21,309 nt of DNA from a virus: positions 1-21,309 of IMG/VR virus record IMGVR_UViG_3300046010_004941. One strand, 5' to 3'. Under the pieces are notes generated by a model, which worked only from the letters and a program-made list of their open reading frames with translations, searched no databases and was not told the origin of the DNA. Both the position numbers and the translations under genes were made by a program. Shown one piece after another: positions 8,296-21,309 of this stretch (position 1 is its first letter; each line of letters opens with the position of its first letter).

Positions 8296-8359
8296 TTGGG
8301 TGGTTATTATCATTCTTTACGGTTTGACGGCGTTAGTGCTGTTCGGTGGCTCTCGATGA
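8288..8359 (+). CDS. Possible 23-residue hydrophobic peptide
   Basis: The frame runs from GTG 8288, overlapping the end of the 41-residue gene, to TGA 8357-8359, which overlaps the ATG of the transglycosylase (ATGA). The product is almost entirely one hydrophobic span (VVIIILYGLTALVLFGG). The two overlapping junctions suggest a chain of coupled small genes. The size makes chance a real alternative, and no ribosome binding site separate from the upstream gene is visible. Confidence 0.35.
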   Translation: MSDWVVIIILYGLTALVLFGGSR

Positions 8360-8883
8360 GGAGTCTGGTTCGTGTTTTGACCTTGGTTGTTGTATCTTTG
8401 GCGGCTGGCATGCTGTTGAACTGGGTGGTTTTTCCGCCCACGCCAACCACCGCACCGAGCATCACCACGGTAAAGCCAGTGGTTACGACAATCGCCACCA
8501 CCAGCACGACCACCACTACTACGACAACTGTGGCTGAACTGGTTGACTACAGCGGTTGGCGATGCCCAAAGTACGAACAACTGTTTGCCGAATACGGTCT
8601 TGTACCTGTCGAGACTTTCTCATATATCGCTTACAGGGAATCAAGATGCCGACCGAAAGCGGTCAATGCTCGTTGGGATGAAGCGGGCAACATCGTTTGG
8701 ACATTGAATAAAAACGGGTCCTACGACAGCGGCTTATTACAAATCAACTCAACATGGAAAACCGTTACCAAAAACATTTGTGGTGGCGGAATCGAAATGC
8801 TGAAAGAACTGGACTGCAATCTTCGTGTTGCAAAATATCTGCTGGACAACGGCGGACTTTCTCATTGGGGAGTCAAAGACTAG
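8356..8883 (+). CDS. Membrane-anchored lytic transglycosylase (SLT-like)
   Basis: A 175-residue protein from ATG 8356, chosen over TTG 8296 because the ATG gives a clean signal-anchor start. Residues 7-25 are hydrophobic, residues 28-60 form a Pro/Thr-rich linker with eight consecutive threonines at 51-58, and residues 65-175 are an SLT-type lysozyme-fold domain. Its motifs are IAYRESRCRPKAVN (catalytic Glu at about 95) and SGLLQIN (125-131), both hallmarks of soluble lytic transglycosylases, which cleave peptidoglycan to 1,6-anhydro products. Several cysteines (70, 98, 141, 154) could form disulfides outside the cell. The anchor and linker would place the enzyme at the envelope rather than in the virion. 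It sits inside the tail operon behind two tiny membrane proteins, resembling a lysis cassette. Confidence 0.82.
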   Translation: MRSLVRVLTLVVVSLAAGMLLNWVVFPPTPTTAPSITTVKPVVTTIATTSTTTTTTTTVAELVDYSGWRCPKYEQLFAEYGLVPVETFSYIAYRESRCRPKAVNARWDEAGNIVWTLNKNGSYDSGLLQINSTWKTVTKNICGGGIEMLKELDCNLRVAKYLLDNGGLSHWGVKD

Positions 8884-10970: not shown

Positions 10971-13900
10971 ATGGCTGACGAAGACATTGAGGTAAGAGCG
11001 AGGCTAATCGCCGACGCCGATGCGTTCATCGACCCGATGCAGGCGGCGACCCAGTCGCTCAAACATTTCCAAGCGGCACTTGCACCCAACACGAAGTTGC
11101 TGACAGCCCTCGGCGTTGCCGCTGGAGCGGGCGGCTATGCGTTGCTTCGCTACGGCAAGGAGGCGTTCTCGGTAGCCGCCAAGGTCGCAGAGTTGAATGT
11201 CGCCATCGGTGCGGTCGGTAAGTCGACTGGTATCGGCGCCAAGAAGATTAGCGACGCCGCCAAGGCAATCCGCAAGAACGGCATCGAAATGGATGCCGCC
11301 CAGAACATCGCCCTGAAGTTCGCCCAGAACAACCTTGACCTGTCGAAGGCGGCGGGCGTCGCCCGTGTCGCACAGGACCTCGCCGTCATCAGCCAGAAGA
11401 ACTCGACCGACACCGCCGAACTCCTCACCCGTGCCATCCAAACGGGTTCGTCAATCCTGTTGAAGTCGGCTGGTATCTCCCGCTACGCCTCGGAAGGGTA
11501 CGCCAAGTACGCAAAGACGCTCGGCAAGAACTCGACGCAGTTGACCGCCACCGAGCGGCAACAGGCGACAATCAACCTCATCATGGAGGAAGGCGCCAGA
11601 GTCGCAGGACTGTACGAGGCGGCGATGACTGAACCCGGCAAGGTGCTTCGCTCGTTCAAGCGTCTCCAAAACGACATCAAACTCGAGATGGGCAATGCGT
11701 TGCTCAAGGGTTTCGGACCGATGATAAAAGCCATCTACGACATGACGAGTTCCTTCTCTAAGAGCGTCCGTGAGGGTGGGGCGTTCGCCAAGATTATCGA
11801 GGGTCTCGGCGTCGCCATCAAAGAGTTGTTGCAACCGATGACCGACCTGTTCTCGAGAACACACCTGTTCTTCAAGGACTTGGATTTGGGGCAACAATCA
11901 GTCCGTGGTATCGCCGACCAGTTCAAGAAGTTCATCCCCATCGTCACCGCTGTCGGCGGCGCTTTGGCGGCGATGGCGGGCAGAAAACTGTTGGGCGGTT
12001 TGCCGCTTATCGGAGGTCTAGCCAAGTCTCTCAACCCGTTCCTCACTGGCATCATGTTGCTGTCCGCCCTTTCGCCGAAACTGCGGGACGCCTTGATGCG
12101 AATAGGGGAGTCGTTGAAACCGATGATTCCAGCGGTACTGGCGTTAGCGGCGGCGTTCGCAGACTTCCTCGCTCGCATCGCCGAAACGACCGCCGAGTTC
12201 CTCACCGCCTTCGGACCAGCAATCACCACCGTTCTCGGCGGACTGGGCGACACGCTGAAGGTCGTCGCTGGCGCCTTCGCCGCCCTGAAGCCGCTCGTGA
12301 CCATCATCGGTTTGGTGTTGCTCAAGGGCATGATTGTCAACCTCATCACATCGACGAAGGCGTGGGGGCATCTCACCAAGGGGCTTGCGGCGGCACGGTT
12401 GGCGTTCAGGACCATCATCGCCGAACAGAAGGCGTACAGTCTCACCGCCGCACAGGGTTCGGCGTCCATCTCAACGATGAGGGCGGCGCTGTTCGCACTT
12501 AGGGCGTCTCTTACGGCGGTGAAGGCGGCAGTCGTGAGCCTGATGGCGAGCATGTTGCCGCTCATCGCCGTGTTCGCCGCCGTCGAAATCTTCATGGCTT
12601 GGCGTAAGGAACAGCAGGCGACCGAGGAAAAGACGCAGGCGTTGACACAGGCAGTCAAAGACCAGTTGTATGCGATGAAGGGGAACGCCACAGAAATAGG
12701 CAAGTTCGTCAACGAACAGAAGGACCTTGCCACGGCTCTCAGTAGCGGTAGCGAGGAGGCGGACAAGTTCGGGCAGTCGCTCCAACTCATGGGCACCGAC
12801 GCAGAAACGGTGCTTACGGCGTTCGGAGAAGGCAAGGACGCCATCACCAATCTGAACAGGGAGTTGACCGCCGCCTCTGGCATCAAGTTCACCGACGACC
12901 AGTTCGCAGGTCTTCTCACCATCGTCGAGAACCGTGGCGGATGGATGAACAACGACTGGTTGACCGAGTCGTTCAGCAACCTCACCGACCAGCAAAAAGA
13001 GTTCGTCAACAACCTCAAACAACTCAACGACATCGCCAAATCGACCGACCCAGCGGACTATGTGCTGACCAACATCGAATACCTCGCTGGAATCGACAAG
13101 TTGGGCAAAAAGGCTTACGACTATGCGATGGTCGAAGTGTTCAAGAATGAGGCAGTCGAGGGAAGCATCGACACCTACCAAGAAGCCATTATCCTGCAAG
13201 GGCTGTTTGCCAAGAAATACAACATCCTGAACGCCGCCGCCATCGCCCAAAAAGCGGCACAAGACAAAGTCAAGGAGAGCCTGAAGGAAACCACACCTCC
13301 GACTATCCAACTGATAAACGCCCTCAACGGTCTGAAGGATGCGAGCGACGACAACAAGGTTTCCGCCGAAGCGTTTGCAAAGCAGTTGTACGGCGACAAG
13401 GACGCAACAAACCAGTTCGCCCAAGCGGTCCTCGCCATCCGTCAGCAGACGGGCGAATGGTCGGACACGCTGAAGAACACCAAGGGCAACATCGACCTGT
13501 TCACCAAGTCTGGGTACGACTTCTACAACCAAATCAAGGAGAACTCGGCGAAAATCCTCGAGTTGAACGGCAACACTGGCGATGTCGTCAACTACCAGAA
13601 GTCGGCAATCGAACAGTTCTACAAGGCTGGCGAAGCCGCTGGATACACCACGGAACAGATTGACGGGCTACTCAGCGTCACGGGGATTTTGGCTGGTCTC
13701 GACAAACTGACCGTCAAGGTCGACGCCGACATTGCGGCGTTCACCGCCAAAATCAAGTTGGTCACCGAAGCGCTCGCCTTGCTGATGGGTCAAGGAGACC
13801 GTGAGGGTGCCCGCCAAGCACAAAGTGTGATTTATCGCCTACAGGGTTTGGTGAAGGCTTTGGAGGATTCCAAGACCGCCGCCAAGACTGGCGCCAACTC

Positions 13901-15668
13901 GTTCAGCAAGTTCACCGACACAACGGACGCCGCCAAGAAAGCGGCGGATGCTCTCGAGAAGCAGAAAGAGAAGTTGCGCCGCAAAATCATGGAGGTTGCC
14001 GAAAAAGCGCTCGCCAAGGCTCGGCAACGAATGGAGGAATACAAGCAGGCGATGGATGCGATGGCGGACGCCGCCAAAACCGCTGTCTACGGTTCTTATT
14101 CGATGACAGATGCTTTGACGAAGGCGGAGGCGGCGGCTCAAGAACACAATGACGCCATGAAACAGGTCAGAGATGAGATGAATGAATATGGCAAGAGTGT
14201 TGCTGATTCATTGAAGGAAACGATTTCATTCAACGAAGCATTGTCTGGTTACCAATCGGTAGCAAACGAAATCAAGTCAGCGAATGACAAGGTGGCTGAG
14301 GCACAAAGCAAGGTCAACGAAGAGCAGGCGTTGTACCAAGATTTGTTGAGAAAGGCTGAAACGACCACGGGCAGAAAAGCCCGCCGTGAAGCATACGAGG
14401 AAGCGGCAAAACAACTTGAAAAGGTAACTGAAGCACAGACTCAGTTGGCTGATGCGACTAGGTCGGCTACTGCGGCGCAACAGTCACAAAAATCTGTGTT
14501 GGATAGATTGCGGGAACAATACAAACAGGCGGTGGATTTCTCGACGAAACTGGACGAACTTGTTACTAAGGGTCTGAGCAAAGAAGGCGTGGACCAGTTG
14601 TTGGGTATGGGGGCTGAAACTGGGTTGAAGTTTGTTGAAGAGTTGTTGACAGGTGGCGGCAATGCGATTGGTGAAGTCAACACCATCTTCAAGGACCTTG
14701 CTGAAATGTCAGATAAACAAGGCAAGAAAATAGCGTCAGGTTTCTTCACCATCGGAAATGATGTTGGAGCCGATTTTATTTCTGCTCTTTCTTTACAAGC
14801 ACAAAATGCCTCAAACTTTGCGGAACAGGTGAAGCGTCTTATCGCTTTGGGCTTGTCGCCGAACAACATTCGCATGGTATTGGAGGCTGGTGTTGAAACA
14901 GGAAGCAAGATTGCCGCCGCCATCGAAAAGGGTGGCGTTGACACCATCACACAGATGAACGAAATGGAGGCGTCGCTCAGGGGGCAAGCCGAAAACCTTG
15001 CCACTCTCCTCAATAACACCTTCTACAAGGCTGGCTTTGACCTTGCCACTCAAATCGTTCAGGGCATCGAGGACAAGATTGAGAAGTTGAATGAAACCCT
15101 TTCCGACATGACGATTGGGCAGTTGAAAGAATATCTTGGCAAAGTTCAGGGCGAGTTCGATGCGATTACTTCTCGTCTATCTATTGCTCCAGCCGATGTG
15201 AGCGGCGCTAATGCTCAAGCAGGCGGTGAAATAGGAGGAGCAAGTGGCGGAACTGCTGGTCGTAGAAGTGACGCCGACCTGAAATCTTTGGGTGGCATGT
15301 ATTCATCTTTCAAGGATGCAGTAAAAGCCCTTCACCCTCTTGCGGTAGCAAAATACACTTCGGATGGTACAGGGTTGAACGCACAAGAAATGGCGGCTTT
15401 GAGGGCGCAGTTCCCTCGTTTAGCGGCGGTTCCTTTCGCTAACGGTGGTTTGGTAAATAAACCTACGCTCGGTTTGATTGGTGAGGCTGGACCAGAAGCC
15501 GTTATTCCGCTCAACCGCATGGGACAAATGAGCAATGGGCAGACAACAATCAACTTGACGGTCAATGCTGGAATGGGTGCTGACGGCAAGAGCATTGGCG
15601 ATGCGATTGTCAATGAACTGAAACGCTGGTCAAGGAAGAACGGCACCATCCCAGTACCAACCGTATGA
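10971..15668 (+). CDS. Tail tape measure protein
   Basis: A 1565-residue protein. Residues 1-320 are helical and Ala/Lys-rich. Hydrophobic segments lie near 43-60, 323-366, 386-400, 430-458 and 519-543, as in many tape measures that may contact the membrane during DNA entry. Residues about 997-1037 form a strong charged coiled-coil, followed by further helices. The C-terminus has the widespread motif FANGGLVNKPTLGLIGEAGP, followed by EAVIPLNRM, at about 1489-1517. Tape length sets tail length; by the usual 0.15 nm per residue this implies a tail of roughly 230 nm, an estimate only. No peptidase or lysozyme motif was seen. Codon use changes near nucleotide 14085, inside this gene. Confidence 0.92.
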   Translation: MADEDIEVRARLIADADAFIDPMQAATQSLKHFQAALAPNTKLLTALGVAAGAGGYALLRYGKEAFSVAAKVAELNVAIGAVGKSTGIGAKKISDAAKAIRKNGIEMDAAQNIALKFAQNNLDLSKAAGVARVAQDLAVISQKNSTDTAELLTRAIQTGSSILLKSAGISRYASEGYAKYAKTLGKNSTQLTATERQQATINLIMEEGARVAGLYEAAMTEPGKVLRSFKRLQNDIKLEMGNALLKGFGPMIKAIYDMTSSFSKSVREGGAFAKIIEGLGVAIKELLQPMTDLFSRTHLFFKDLDLGQQSVRGIADQFKKFIPIVTAVGGALAAMAGRKLLGGLPLIGGLAKSLNPFLTGIMLLSALSPKLRDALMRIGESLKPMIPAVLALAAAFADFLARIAETTAEFLTAFGPAITTVLGGLGDTLKVVAGAFAALKPLVTIIGLVLLKGMIVNLITSTKAWGHLTKGLAAARLAFRTIIAEQKAYSLTAAQGSASISTMRAALFALRASLTAVKAAVVSLMASMLPLIAVFAAVEIFMAWRKEQQATEEKTQALTQAVKDQLYAMKGNATEIGKFVNEQKDLATALSSGSEEADKFGQSLQLMGTDAETVLTAFGEGKDAITNLNRELTAASGIKFTDDQFAGLLTIVENRGGWMNNDWLTESFSNLTDQQKEFVNNLKQLNDIAKSTDPADYVLTNIEYLAGIDKLGKKAYDYAMVEVFKNEAVEGSIDTYQEAIILQGLFAKKYNILNAAAIAQKAAQDKVKESLKETTPPTIQLINALNGLKDASDDNKVSAEAFAKQLYGDKDATNQFAQAVLAIRQQTGEWSDTLKNTKGNIDLFTKSGYDFYNQIKENSAKILELNGNTGDVVNYQKSAIEQFYKAGEAAGYTTEQIDGLLSVTGILAGLDKLTVKVDADIAAFTAKIKLVTEALALLMGQGDREGARQAQSVIYRLQGLVKALEDSKTAAKTGANSFSKFTDTTDAAKKAADALEKQKEKLRRKIMEVAEKALAKARQRMEEYKQAMDAMADAAKTAVYGSYSMTDALTKAEAAAQEHNDAMKQVRDEMNEYGKSVADSLKETISFNEALSGYQSVANEIKSANDKVAEAQSKVNEEQALYQDLLRKAETTTGRKARREAYEEAAKQLEKVTEAQTQLADATRSATAAQQSQKSVLDRLREQYKQAVDFSTKLDELVTKGLSKEGVDQLLGMGAETGLKFVEELLTGGGNAIGEVNTIFKDLAEMSDKQGKKIASGFFTIGNDVGADFISALSLQAQNASNFAEQVKRLIALGLSPNNIRMVLEAGVETGSKIAAAIEKGGVDTITQMNEMEASLRGQAENLATLLNNTFYKAGFDLATQIVQGIEDKIEKLNETLSDMTIGQLKEYLGKVQGEFDAITSRLSIAPADVSGANAQAGGEIGGASGGTAGRRSDADLKSLGGMYSSFKDAVKALHPLAVAKYTSDGTGLNAQEMAALRAQFPRLAAVPFANGGLVNKPTLGLIGEAGPEAVIPLNRMGQMSNGQTTINLTVNAGMGADGKSIGDAIVNELKRWSRKNGTIPVPTV

Positions 15669-17748: not shown

Positions 17749-18600
17749 ATGGCTACTGCTCGCCGTCAACTTGGGTATGTGTCGTCGCTGACGGTACAGA
17801 CCAATCTTTCAACTTTGGTTGAGATTGAGTATGTGGTCGTCGCTGGTGGCGGCGGCGGTTCAACATTTAGCGGCGGTGGCGGTGCTGGCGGATTCCGCAC
17901 CAATGTTTCTGGGGCAACAAGCGGCGGCGGTGCTTCTGCCGAACCAACTTTGTATATGCCCAAAGGCACTGCATTTACGGTTACAGTTGGTGCGGGTGGT
18001 GCTGGTGGCACATCGGCGCAAGGTTCCAACTCCGTCTTTGGAACAATCCTGAGTATCGGTGGTGGTGCTGGCAGTTATGGCACTGGTGGTTCTGGCGGTG
18101 GTGCAGGCGGCTCTGGCGGAACTGGAACTGGTGGCTCTGCTGTTGCTGGTCACGGCTATGCAGGTGGCAACATCACGACTGGAATGGGAAGCGGAAACGA
18201 AAGCGGTGCTGGCGGCGGCGGTGCGGGTGCAGTAGGTCAAACTCTCGCTAGCGCATCTAGCGGTACAGGGTCAAACGGTGGCGACGGTCAAAGCACAACT
18301 ATTACTGGTTCATCAGCGACTTACGCTGGTGGCGGTGCTGGCGGTTCACGATTTGCAACTGGAACGGGCACGGGTGGAACTGGCGGCGGCGGCAATGCTG
18401 GTGTCGCAGGCTCGACGAACACGGGTGGCGGTGGTGGTGGGCGTTCAACATCAACGGGTCAGGCTGGTGGAAGTGGAATAGTAATCATTCGTAGCAAGAC
18501 AGCCGCCGCATCAACGACAGGAAGCCCGACAGTCACAACAGGCATTACTGGTGGTTGGACCGCTTACACTTTTACGAGCAGTGGAAGCATTACTTGGTAG
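17749..18600 (+). CDS. Glycine-rich tail adhesin (first copy)
   Basis: A 283-residue protein starting with the short element LGYVSS (residues 8-13). It then has a long glycine-rich body (GGGGGSTFSGGGGAGGF, many GGxGG runs) ending in GGSGIVIIRSK and a C-terminal WTAYTFTSSGSITW. Glycine runs of this kind form polyglycine sandwich folds in T-even-type gp38 adhesins, which place variable loops at the tip for receptor binding. The same architecture recurs at 18850. It lies at the distal end of the tail cluster, as expected for a receptor-binding gene. Similarity to gp38 is in composition and position only. No weak ribosome binding site stands out before ATG 17749. Confidence 0.68.
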   Translation: MATARRQLGYVSSLTVQTNLSTLVEIEYVVVAGGGGGSTFSGGGGAGGFRTNVSGATSGGGASAEPTLYMPKGTAFTVTVGAGGAGGTSAQGSNSVFGTILSIGGGAGSYGTGGSGGGAGGSGGTGTGGSAVAGHGYAGGNITTGMGSGNESGAGGGGAGAVGQTLASASSGTGSNGGDGQSTTITGSSATYAGGGAGGSRFATGTGTGGTGGGGNAGVAGSTNTGGGGGGRSTSTGQAGGSGIVIIRSKTAAASTTGSPTVTTGITGGWTAYTFTSSGSITW

Positions 18601-18607
18601 GTATCTA

Positions 18608-18853
18608 ATGGCTCATTTTGCAAAAGTAGAAAACGGTATCGTTCGAGAAGTTATCGTCGTCGGCAACAGTGACGCCCCGACAGAAGCCGCAGGCAAAGCG
18701 TTCATCGCAAGCATCGGTCTTGCTGGTGAGTGGGTGCAAACCTCGTACAACAATAATCCTGTTGAGGGTGCGGACCGTGGGAAGTTTGCTGGTATTGGTG
18801 ATGTGTGGGATGGTTCTAAGTTTGTTGCGCCGACAAGTGAGGTAGCAGAGTGA
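18608..18853 (+). CDS. Small MAHFA-type protein paired with the adhesin (first copy)
   Basis: An 81-residue protein. ATG 18608 is chosen because it opens with MAHFAKVENGIVREVIVVGN, as in its paralogue at 19772; a longer frame start at 18551 would add residues from the adhesin's reading region. The core has GKAFIASIGLAGEWVQTSYN and GKFAGIGDVWDGSKF. Related small proteins occur beside tail fibre genes in many marine phages, where function is unproved. A role as adhesin cap, chaperone or tip component is inferred from pairing. The stop overlaps the next gene start in GTGA (18850-18853). Confidence 0.65.
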   Translation: MAHFAKVENGIVREVIVVGNSDAPTEAAGKAFIASIGLAGEWVQTSYNNNPVEGADRGKFAGIGDVWDGSKFVAPTSEVAE

Positions 18854-19770
18854 CTCGTTCTTATTTGGGTTATGTTTCATCGCAGACAACGGACACTGTG
18901 GCGGTAGGTGCTACGAAGGCTATTGCTATTGACTATCTGCTTGTGTCAGGTGGTGGTGGCGGTGCTGCTGGTGGCGGTGGTGCTGGTGGTGTTCGGACTA
19001 TCACGAGCGAGTTGTTAGGTGTAGGCACTTATCTTGTTGTCATTGGCGGTGGCGGTGCAGGTCAGCGAGCGAATGTGACGCAAGCCTCAAATGAAACTGC
19101 GCTACCACGAGATAGTGGTAATGGTAATCCATCGTTCTTCAAGAACCTGACTGCGACAGGTGGCGGTGGCGGCGGTTCTTTTACCTCAACGAACTCAGGT
19201 GGCTATGCGCTCGCTGGTTATGCAGGTGCTTCTGGTGGTGGTGGCAACTTCAACGGTGGCACGGTAAGCGCTGGTGGCGCAGGCAACGCTGGCGGCTATT
19301 CGCCAGTTGAAGGTTTCGCAGGCTCGCAAGGCAATGTCGGCGCAGGCGATAAGCACGGCGGCGGTGGTGGAGCAGGTCAGGCTGCTGGCTCAGGTGGGAC
19401 AGACGGCGCAAATGGCGGTGACGGAATCCAGAACGCCTTTCAGACAGGAAGCAATCAGTACTACGGTGGTGGCGGTGGTGGCGGTTCGCAAGACGGACTC
19501 AACAACGGTGCAGGTGGTCAAGGCGGCGGTGCTAATGGAGTAGGCAACACAACAGCCAACGCTGGGACAGCGAACACAGGTGGTGGTGGTGGCGGAAGAA
19601 CTAATACAGGTAATGGTGGCGCAGGTGGAAGTGGTGTAGTCATCATCAGGTATCTGACAGCAGACCTTGCCGCAGCAGGACTAACAAGCATCACGGGTGG
19701 AACAACGAGTTCATACGGTTCTTATTCTGTTCACACTTTTACTTCGACAGGAACTTTGACGGTGGCATAA
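18850..19770 (+). CDS. Glycine-rich tail adhesin (second copy)
   Basis: A 306-residue protein from GTG 18850 (GTGA overlap). It begins with SYLGYVSSQT and has glycine-rich blocks (GGGGGAAGGGGAGGV, later YYGGGGGGGSQDG), an Asn/Gly-rich end section, GGSGVVIIRYLT and a final TFTSTGTLTVA strand. Architecture equals that of the 17749 protein, but the middle differs strongly in sequence, with blocks unique to it. Two different receptor-binding tips on one phage could broaden host range, or they could form one hetero-oligomeric tip. Polyglycine-sandwich fold is inferred, not shown. Confidence 0.68.
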   Translation: MTRSYLGYVSSQTTDTVAVGATKAIAIDYLLVSGGGGGAAGGGGAGGVRTITSELLGVGTYLVVIGGGGAGQRANVTQASNETALPRDSGNGNPSFFKNLTATGGGGGGSFTSTNSGGYALAGYAGASGGGGNFNGGTVSAGGAGNAGGYSPVEGFAGSQGNVGAGDKHGGGGGAGQAAGSGGTDGANGGDGIQNAFQTGSNQYYGGGGGGGSQDGLNNGAGGQGGGANGVGNTTANAGTANTGGGGGGRTNTGNGGAGGSGVVIIRYLTADLAAAGLTSITGGTTSSYGSYSVHTFTSTGTLTVA

Positions 19771-19771
19771 C

Positions 19772-20023
19772 ATGGCGCATTTTGCAAACATCAACGAGTT
19801 CAACATTGTTGAACAAGTCATCGTCATCAGTAACGCAGACTGTGGTGGTGGACACTTCCCTGAAAGCGAACCGATAGGTCAAGCGTTTATCGCATCACTC
19901 GGTTTGGAAGGCTTGTGGTTGCAAACAAGTTATTCAGGCTCGTTCAGGGGTATCTATGCAGGTACAGGGTGTTGGTACGACTACGACATTGACGAGTTCA
20001 AGGTAGTAGATGCTGACGCATAA
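19772..20023 (+). CDS. Small MAHFA-type protein paired with the adhesin (second copy)
   Basis: An 83-residue protein, paralogue of the 18608 product. It shares MAHFA-x-x-(N/E)-x-x-IV, VIVI/VVG-SNAD-type and GQAFIASLGLEGLWLQTSYS elements, then GIYAGTGCWYDYDIDEFKVV. A Cys-containing insert (DCGGGHFPESEP) is unique to this copy. It starts at ATG 19772, one base after the adhesin stop, and its last 14 bases overlap the oxygenase start at 20010. As with its paralogue, function is unknown, and adhesin cap or assembly factor is a guess. Confidence 0.65.
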   Translation: MAHFANINEFNIVEQVIVISNADCGGGHFPESEPIGQAFIASLGLEGLWLQTSYSGSFRGIYAGTGCWYDYDIDEFKVVDADA

Positions 20024-20633
20024 CCTTCTGCCGAAACAGCAGTCTGATTATCTTGCGTCGTGGTTGTTGTCTCCTAACTTTCCGCATTATTACAGCGGCA
20101 ACATACACAGTGGCAACTTGACTGATAGGTACGACAACGACTTGAATGCAACTGGTTTCAGTCACCGTTTCTACGACAACCTGCAACAGCACAGCGACGG
20201 ACTTCACCTTGTGATGCCCTACCTGTGGGCGTTGCTTCATCGCAACGGTTTGCGAATGAAAGAGTTATTGCGTGTCCGTTCGTTCATGTCGTTGCAGAAC
20301 GGCTCTCAACACAACGGATTCCCACACATTGACATTCCGAACTTTGATGGGTACATGACTGCCATCGTTTATGTCGTGGGTGCAGACGGTGACACCATTC
20401 TCTACAACGAGACTTTCAACGGTGAACCGATACCAAAGCCAGACACCTTGACTGAGATGTGCCGAATCACGCCTAAGCCGAACAGCGGCATTGTGTTTGA
20501 CGGACATCGCTATCACACAGGTTTGCTTCCACAGACGAGCAAGGTTCGCCTAGTGTTGAACTACAACTTTACTGTTGATGCGGCTAGTGATGCGTTCGTA
20601 GCACCGAATGAAGAATCAGAAGAAACTCCGTAG
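20010..20633 (+). CDS. 2-oxoglutarate/Fe(II)-dependent oxygenase, prolyl-4-hydroxylase-like
   Basis: A 207-residue protein with the double-stranded beta-helix metal triad: H106-x-D108 (FPHIDIPN) and distal H169 (DGHRYHTGL), followed by R180 in VRLVLNYNF, which would bind the 2-oxoglutarate carboxylate. The fold is supported by YMTAIVYVVGADGDTILYNE between the two metal parts. Such enzymes use Fe(II), O2 and 2-oxoglutarate to hydroxylate proteins, nucleobases or small molecules, and are common in cyanophages and marine phages. The start ATG 20010 lies in the end of the previous gene behind AAGG (20000-20003). Its place after the adhesins suggests it modifies a tip protein or host surface product, but substrate is unknown. 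Confidence 0.82.
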   Translation: MLTHNLLPKQQSDYLASWLLSPNFPHYYSGNIHSGNLTDRYDNDLNATGFSHRFYDNLQQHSDGLHLVMPYLWALLHRNGLRMKELLRVRSFMSLQNGSQHNGFPHIDIPNFDGYMTAIVYVVGADGDTILYNETFNGEPIPKPDTLTEMCRITPKPNSGIVFDGHRYHTGLLPQTSKVRLVLNYNFTVDAASDAFVAPNEESEETP

Positions 20634-21309
20634 ACTTCGCTGGCTGATTTTTGCACCTGCGGCTATTCTTGCGGTTGGAGCGCCAGTTTCAGCAGAAAAT
20701 CAAGCAGGTTTGGCTTACACCGTTTGGGATAATCGAACTGGTCAGTTCAACCAATATAACTCAAGTCCTCCACTGCCGCCAACTACTTCAGTTGTAGCAA
20801 CTGGTATTGCTCCAAAAATCGAGTATCAGTGGGGTGGCGATGCGATTATGGGGACGAGTATTTCTGAAGATGTAGTTATACGGTTTGCTGGTTGGTTGGA
20901 CCCCCCTGTTGACCAACAGTATTACTTTTGTGTTGAGTCAGATGATGGTGCCCAGTTGTTTTTAGATGATGAGTTGGTTGTAAATGATTGGTATGACCGA
21001 GGAGGGGGTTGTGGTCAAACAGCGGATGTGGATTTCTCTAACGGAGAACCGAAACAGATAACTGTTTGGTGGTACGAGAACGGCGGTGGGGCACATGTAA
21101 CGATGCTTTACTACTCAAATGAGGGTTGGAATGTTGTGCCTGCGGATTGGTTCACTGTTTCTGAACCAGAATCGTCGGTGACTACTACTACTGATGCGAC
21201 TACAACCACGGAAGTAGTTACCACAACTTCACAAACTTTTCTACCTACAACTGTTTTTCCTTCTTCTACGATGCTGGAAACAACCACCACTGAGGAAACA
21301 ACAACAACC
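20608..21309 (+). CDS. Secreted PA14-domain protein with Thr-rich tail (3' truncated by window)
   Basis: An open frame of 234 codons from ATG 20608 (overlapping the oxygenase by 26 bases) to the end of the window, with no stop. Residues 1-29 are a signal peptide: basic start (MKNQKKLRRLRW), hydrophobic core, and a PVSA cleavage site before E30. Residues about 70-185 are a PA14-type beta domain, with FAGWLDPP, ESDDGAQLFLDDELVVNDW at 110-128, and WWYENGGGAHVTMLYY near 154-169. PA14 domains bind carbohydrates or act in adhesion. From 190 on the chain is Thr/Ser/Glu-rich, a typical extended linker, so another domain probably follows. Whether it is on the virion, at the host surface or secreted cannot be decided. 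Confidence 0.75.
   Translation, partial: MKNQKKLRRLRWLIFAPAAILAVGAPVSAENQAGLAYTVWDNRTGQFNQYNSSPPLPPTTSVVATGIAPKIEYQWGGDAIMGTSISEDVVIRFAGWLDPPVDQQYYFCVESDDGAQLFLDDELVVNDWYDRGGGCGQTADVDFSNGEPKQITVWWYENGGGAHVTMLYYSNEGWNVVPADWFTVSEPESSVTTTTDATTTTEVVTTTSQTFLPTTVFPSSTMLETTTTEETTTT

Follow-up and report, generated by a model that had tools for sequence, protein, structure and literature searches.

Two tandem pairs of a glycine-rich adhesin and a small MAHFA protein in a siphovirus-like late region: putative host-recognition cassettes with a predicted one-domain chaperone or cap

Introduction

The closest arrangement described so far is that of the Pseudanabaena phage Pam3, in which the fibre protein gp24 and the chaperone gp25 form a 3:3 complex seen by cryo-EM (PDB 7YPX; PMC9608196). 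The N-terminal beta-sandwich of gp25 sits there on the junction between the TNF-like and the glycine-rich domains of gp24, the domain pair proposed to bind the receptor, with beta2/alpha1 of gp25 against beta5-7 of gp24, and its nearest structural relative is reported to be the N-terminal domain of Mu Tfa (PMC9608196). In Mu, the small gene of this chaperone (Tfa or gpU, PDB 5YVQ) also lies directly after the fibre gene, and the pairs are duplicated (S/U and S'/U'). A different type of tip is gp38 of T-even phages, which forms a polyglycine-II sandwich at the end of the fibre (PMC12892980) and which, in Salmonella phage S16 and coliphage PP01, has conserved glycine-rich motifs split by variable loops. 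Glycine-rich 'brush' domains are also found in mycobacteriophages, as in the tail tip of Bxb1 (9D93).

Here we describe two head-to-tail gene pairs, each encoding a glycine-rich protein (adhesin) and then a short protein that opens with MAHFA, in a 21.3-kb IMG/VR virus record; the whole stretch is referred to as the window. Gene order and spacing are as in Pam3 gp24/gp25. The fibre gp24 combines TNF-like and glycine-rich domains, as the adhesins are predicted to do, with a match to the Pfam family Gly_rich_2 (PF21722) just under the cut-off. Among the relevant PDB structures, a MAHFA model matches the N-terminal beta-sandwich of gp25 best, and this domain retrieves MAHFA proteins by sequence. 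Two differences stand out: gp25 has a 99-residue helical trimerisation domain whereas MAHFA consists of a single domain, about 80 residues long, and the window has two tandem cassettes with exchangeable modules. With Mu, the likeness extends to the fold of the Tfa N-terminal domain, which is among the MAHFA matches; however, MAHFA profiles do not match Mu U, MAHFA is without the helical C-terminal domain, and the C-terminus of the Mu fibre S has, by eye, no glycine-rich domain. The T-even gp38, unlike the window adhesins, is a separate tip protein placed on gp37; the adhesins match Gly_rich_2 but have no match to the Pfam family of gp38, and are predicted to include a TNF-like part like that of Pam3. 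The Bxb1 tail tip, that of a siphovirus too, is the top fold match of adhesin 2. In the literature on MAHFA, phrog_7759 or PF21722, we found nothing describing a pair of a glycine-rich and a MAHFA protein.

Results

By its ORF content, the window looks like a siphovirus late region, with a tape-measure-like ORF of 1565 residues at 10971-15668 and tail genes downstream. The record is probably a fragment of a virus genome, and a megablast of the whole window against annotated phage records gave zero matches, hence no close relative. The two pairs occupy 17749-20023 on the plus strand, and their ORFs bear out the matched pairs of 283+81 and 306+83 residues of the initial annotation. Adhesin 1 (17749..18600, 283 aa) consists of the slot-1 anchor MATARRQLGYVSS, a Gly_rich_2 tip module and a C-terminal hairpin tail (PF21722, E 4e-10; phrog_2295, E 1.5e-34). 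MAHFA 1 (18608..18853, 81 aa; phrog_7759, E 6e-13) comes after it, its mechanical ORF beginning upstream of this start, at 18551. Adhesin 2 (18850..19770, 306 aa) has a GTG start and the same make-up behind the slot-2 anchor MTRSYLGYVSS (PF21722, E 3e-21), and is followed by MAHFA 2 (19772..20023, 83 aa; phrog_7759, E 9e-17). Along the four ORFs we found a gap of 7 nt, an overlap of 4 nt and a gap of 1 nt. The motif GGSG(I/V)VIIR, which had been taken to close each large gene, is not the end of the adhesins, as 35-40 more residues come after it, namely the hairpin TGSPTVTT...TAYTFTSSGSITW.

MAHFA 1 and MAHFA 2 are 47% identical (E 7e-18), with a z of 21-22 against shuffles, none of 500 reaching the real score. 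The two adhesins gave E 0.76 by composition-corrected BLAST; their alignment has a z of about 15-17, reached by 0/500 residue shuffles and 0/500 dipeptide-preserving shuffles, and both match Gly_rich_2 over nearly the whole model (40.4 and 76.7 bits, cut-off 24.3). The shuffle z-scores and the shared Gly_rich_2 match indicate that both members of the pairs are homologous beyond composition, as the initial annotation had supposed, and the shuffles rule out that composition alone accounts for the likeness of the large proteins. The tandem duplication it had proposed is an old one: a forced global DNA alignment of the two pairs gives about 62% and 66% identity, and a recent event is ruled out because both slots recur, in unchanged order, in relatives. 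Likewise, the contrast of conserved ends and a diverged middle is clearest between phages and at the DNA level, and is not confined to the two copies in the window.

MAHFA relatives were gathered from IMG/VR by MAHFA similarity alone, with five queries and single-protein seeds, and the family is large, with at least 371 distinct proteins. Among the matches listed, a glycine-rich ORF, by a glycine threshold of our own choice, lies directly upstream of 337 of 371 distinct MAHFA genes, a set dereplicated by identical MAHFA protein only, so that related phages count repeatedly. Eleven exceptions lie at or near contig edges, and leaving out such cases the linkage is 337/360 (94%). As a background, a glycine-rich gene lies directly upstream of 3.4% of the other small genes in these loci, and of 7.9% of all genes there other than MAHFA. 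One result that would have refuted the initial annotation, MAHFA genes lying mostly apart from glycine-rich adhesins, was not found. A glycine-rich gene is present somewhere on the locus for 355 of 363 non-edge MAHFA genes, and the exceptions that remain mostly have such genes no further than about 3 kb from MAHFA; in the T4-like cyanophages S-SSM5 and P-RSM4, other genes are inserted between the two. The commonest adhesin/MAHFA junction in the IMG/VR loci is a 1-nt stop/start overlap. Copy number varies among relatives, a locus having between 1 and 4 pairs, and the linkage holds in sipho-, podo- and myovirus-like phages, whose backbones and MAHFA sequences differ greatly. The pair is also carried by isolated phages, namely Bellamy, HTVC025P, HTVC023P, CRP-143, CRP-207, Melnitz, Manatee Spring podovirus and S-SM1. 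In the last of these, an isolated T4-like cyanophage, the pair (L368:11842-13472, SSM1_049/050) is annotated as hypothetical proteins and is followed by 2OG oxygenases, and this phage would be a handy system for laboratory work.

In the opposite direction, the 570 genes that follow a glycine-rich gene comprise 385 MAHFA genes, 87 further glycine-rich genes and 98 others. MAHFA is therefore not universally needed, since 185/570 of the genes following Gly_rich_2 genes are not MAHFA. In several phages, two or three adhesin genes stand in a row ahead of one MAHFA gene, which rules out a strict one-to-one pairing. At seven loci (L017-L019, L062, L068, L076 and L111) the small genes after glycine-rich genes miss the MAHFA profile and look like divergent relatives of the phrog_14370 type. 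Natural fusions of a glycine-rich and a MAHFA protein were also sought and none was credible; two ORFs extend further upstream, but these extensions look like another frame being read.

Regarding the large protein, there are proteins of 1000 residues (L303, L278) that carry Gly_rich_2 at the C-terminus and match tail-protein families at the N-terminus. Its C-terminal place in such T7-like tail fibres, seen in relatives and not in the window protein itself, shows that the module is a fibre tip. When 54 adhesins are aligned, invariant glycine motifs emerge and, between them, segments highly variable in length and sequence, a pattern also described for gp38 of T-even phages (PMC12892980). The AlphaFold2 model of adhesin 2 (pLDDT 87.5) retrieved by Foldseek the Bxb1 tail tip first (E 3e-3, probability 0.90), then the Pam3 fibre 7ypx_A and then the glycine-rich domains of ALK/LTK, the E-values to Pam3 gp24 and ALK/LTK being 0.19 and above. 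Pam3 gp24 in turn matches Gly_rich_2 along its length (E 5e-5), at 23.8 bits where the curated cut-off is 24.3. Sequence searches of the PDB returned zero matches with the adhesin profiles and zero with the MAHFA profiles, and a Pfam search with the window adhesins gave only Gly_rich_2, without a match to the gp38 family model. By analogy with these fibres, the initial proposal that the large proteins act in receptor binding is supported, and we consider them predicted receptor-binding tip modules.

The small proteins belong to phrog_7759 or phrog_14370, both listed as of unknown function, in keeping with the remark that MAHFA genes are usually unannotated. The AlphaFold2 model of MAHFA 2 (pLDDT 93.7) has the topology beta-beta-alpha-beta-beta-beta. 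Its Foldseek search against 350,542 chains placed the Pam3 chaperone gp25 (7ypx_a) at rank 5 (TM 0.52, E 2.9) and the Mu fibre chaperone (5yvq_B) at rank 11; no PDB fold match is significant by E-value, 2.9 being the best relevant one. Three tail-fibre or tail assembly chaperones are among its named BFVD matches. When 12,995 ORFs were searched with the N-terminal domain of gp25, MAHFA proteins made up almost all of the top matches, the best with E 0.02, and 0/300 shuffled gp25 sequences scored as well against MAHFA; an alignment by eye sets gp25 HYARVVDGLVVE against HYAKVVDSKVVQ in a MAHFA protein. Profile-profile comparison by hhalign of MAHFA with Pam3 gp25 or with Mu U alone was not significant, and V22 gp27, a DUF4376 chaperone, had no credible match to MAHFA. 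From the predicted models and a weak sequence match, we infer that MAHFA is related in fold to the N-terminal domain of Tfa and gp25. The searches with adhesin and with MAHFA thus point separately to the two partners of 7YPX, and this convergence, together with the linkage, is our main argument. MAHFA would most likely be an assembly or cap factor for the tip, the role first suggested for it, and by analogy may work like the client-binding half of Tfa or gp25, in a complex that is so far a predicted one.

The MAHFA 2 protein stops after the beta core, at 83 residues, and its model is without a C-terminal alpha-helical trimerisation domain, so by a strict definition MAHFA is not of the Tfa/gp25 type. 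Alternatively, MAHFA may be built into the tip for good, as an accessory adhesin or collar that remains in the virion and contributes to contact with the receptor, and not act as a transient chaperone. We regard this as unlikely, though to be taken seriously. MAHFA has no counterpart of the trimerising domain of gp25, which is released; it is slot-specific and conserved; in many members a W-rich segment is added at the C-terminus, the protein so extended having 115-190 residues in other phages; and Mu Tfa is reported, in literature cited in PMC9608196 and PMC10579305, to stay on the fibre tip. On the other hand, gp25 of Pam3 was not detected in virions (PMC9608196).

The two pairs occupy distinct slots. 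In close relatives, slot 1 opens with MATARRQLGYVSS and slot 2 with MTRSYLGYVSS, in that order in 24 of the 24 loci with both. Within slots, mean identity is 85-90% for the anchors, 46-56% for the modules and 75% for the slot-1 MAHFA; unrelated modules compared across slots give 45%. The 5' anchor block of slot 1, with the LGYVSS element (17749..17788, plus strand), is conserved as DNA even where the remaining adhesin is replaced, and the segment 17739-17793 is 98-100% identical in L035, L047 and L053. In L035, that segment is 100% identical to the window, most of the adhesin body is unalignable, and identity returns to 89% at 18608-18878. At the protein level, some relatives have a MAHFA 1 that is 94-96% identical to that of the window with an adhesin 1 only 43-49% identical.

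The slot-1 module of the window was also found in other slots and backbones. In L355 (3995-5111) it stands, with 78% DNA identity, behind a slot-2 anchor and before a MAHFA-2-like gene, the block of window positions 17812-18657 being joined to that gene at window position 19815, and in L356 (2602-4002) and L358 (778-1914) it follows a third, unrelated N-terminus. These arrangements, together with L035, show that tips move between slots and backbones and that caps are not matched to tips, which agrees with a cap that, like gp25, is attached to the conserved beta part. Conservation of MAHFA to up to 96% while the adhesin is replaced also disfavours a tip-specific chaperone. The view of the initial annotation that the MAHFA proteins are dedicated partners is not supported, as the same module occurs with different MAHFA types, the same MAHFA with unrelated modules, and one MAHFA with two or three adhesins.

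The position of these joins raises another explanation, namely that MAHFA is an unrelated small protein kept beside adhesins only because tips are exchanged by recombination at its conserved 5' region, its product having little to do with the adhesin. In mosaic relatives, the shared blocks do end near that region, as at the L355 junction, and MAHFA is conserved whichever adhesin module precedes it. We consider this explanation very improbable, because the linkage persists across phages of the three tail types with diverse backbones and MAHFA sequences, MAHFA is strongly conserved as a protein, and independent fold and sequence leads indicate fibre chaperones. The initial annotation also took the two large proteins for alternative tips, which could mean that only one cassette is expressed or displayed per virion. 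There is a precedent in the G segment of Mu, where inversion selects one of the two annotated fibre-chaperone pairs. In the window, however, both pairs lie in a single co-oriented cluster, tightly spaced and with translational-coupling overlaps, and their slot-specific anchors in a constant order suggest two distinct attachment sites. Display of both tips at once, at two tail positions, is as likely from these anchors, and a choice of one tip per virion seems to us rather improbable.

Discussion

The observation made in the initial annotation is correct and more general than proposed, and its interpretation is right in kind. We favour the reading, with a probability of roughly 0.7, that each pair is a host-recognition cassette formed by an exchangeable TNF-like/glycine-rich tip and a one-domain chaperone or cap. 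The tip would begin with a short slot-specific N-terminal anchor, the LGYVSS element, and continue with a TNF-like beta-sandwich from which the glycine-rich strands project as a lattice, so that the variable loops between the conserved glycine motifs may contact the receptor. MAHFA would be a small chaperone with a beta-sandwich fold, akin to the N-terminal domain by which Tfa-type chaperones bind their client. Translated directly after its client, it would bind the nascent tip in the conserved beta part, at the TNF-like/glycine-rich junction, where it may protect and align the tip and aid its folding, and then leave or stay as a cap until or after virion maturation, presumably doing so without the C-terminal helical trimerisation domain that Tfa and Pam3 gp25 have. 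Tip modules are traded between slots and genomes, the joins falling close to the 5' anchor and to the adhesin/MAHFA boundary. The caps remain in their slot and so have to accept a variety of tips.

The arrangement of a fibre followed by its chaperone is already known, and in our best reading the one-domain cap with exchangeable tips is a new version of it. More broadly, and only tentatively, with confidence a little short of even, we propose that cassettes of exchangeable glycine-rich tips are common to aquatic phages of the three tail types, and that in them each slot has its own minimal one-domain MAHFA cap that works without a trimerisation domain and is tied to the slot and not to the tip, letting tips be swapped without loss of foldability. 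This would give a testable function to phrog_7759, a very common unnamed family of aquatic phages. The entries of phrog_7759 and phrog_14370 contain no link to glycine-rich tips or fibre chaperones. MAHFA genes could also be used as markers in metagenomes, where a receptor-binding tip would be expected directly upstream. Furthermore, tips that move between slots and backbones while caps stay offer a definite way in which phages could alter their host range, and, should the one-domain cap prove sufficient by itself, this would reveal the minimum required part of Tfa chaperones.

The adhesins of the wider family occur in two forms. The conserved hairpin GGTxTTSGxYxxHTFtSSGTF comes after the glycine-rich domain in 198 of 265 adhesins, the form of both window adhesins, and before it in the others; the two arrangements were noted from the window adhesins together with L115, L149, L190 and L012. 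A profile of the C-terminal tail matches 41 of 66 N-terminal segments of the hairpin-first form and 0 of the hairpin-last form. Judged by these sequences, the relation between the two forms looks like a circular permutation.

Downstream of the cassettes, a gene overlapping MAHFA 2 by 14 nt (20010..20633, plus strand, 207 aa) encodes a protein similar to 2OG-Fe(II) oxygenases (phrog_81, E 3e-4). Its best PHROG is phrog_274 (E 3e-33), labelled 'DNA endonuclease V'; this label looks wrong because the protein has oxygenase-like HxD...H motifs. Homologues of this gene were found in 11/11 loci with an adhesin-2-like module, from about five lineages, and in 4/72 others, so it travels with the adhesin-2 tip. 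The next ORF (20608-21309), open at the end of the window, has a signal-like N-terminus, a PA14 domain (E 3.5e-10) and a Thr-rich linker, and similar ORFs come after the cassettes in many relatives. Another Thr-rich linker is found in the ORF at 8296-8883, between tail genes, which by eye combines a hydrophobic N-terminus with a lysozyme-like (SLT-type) sequence.
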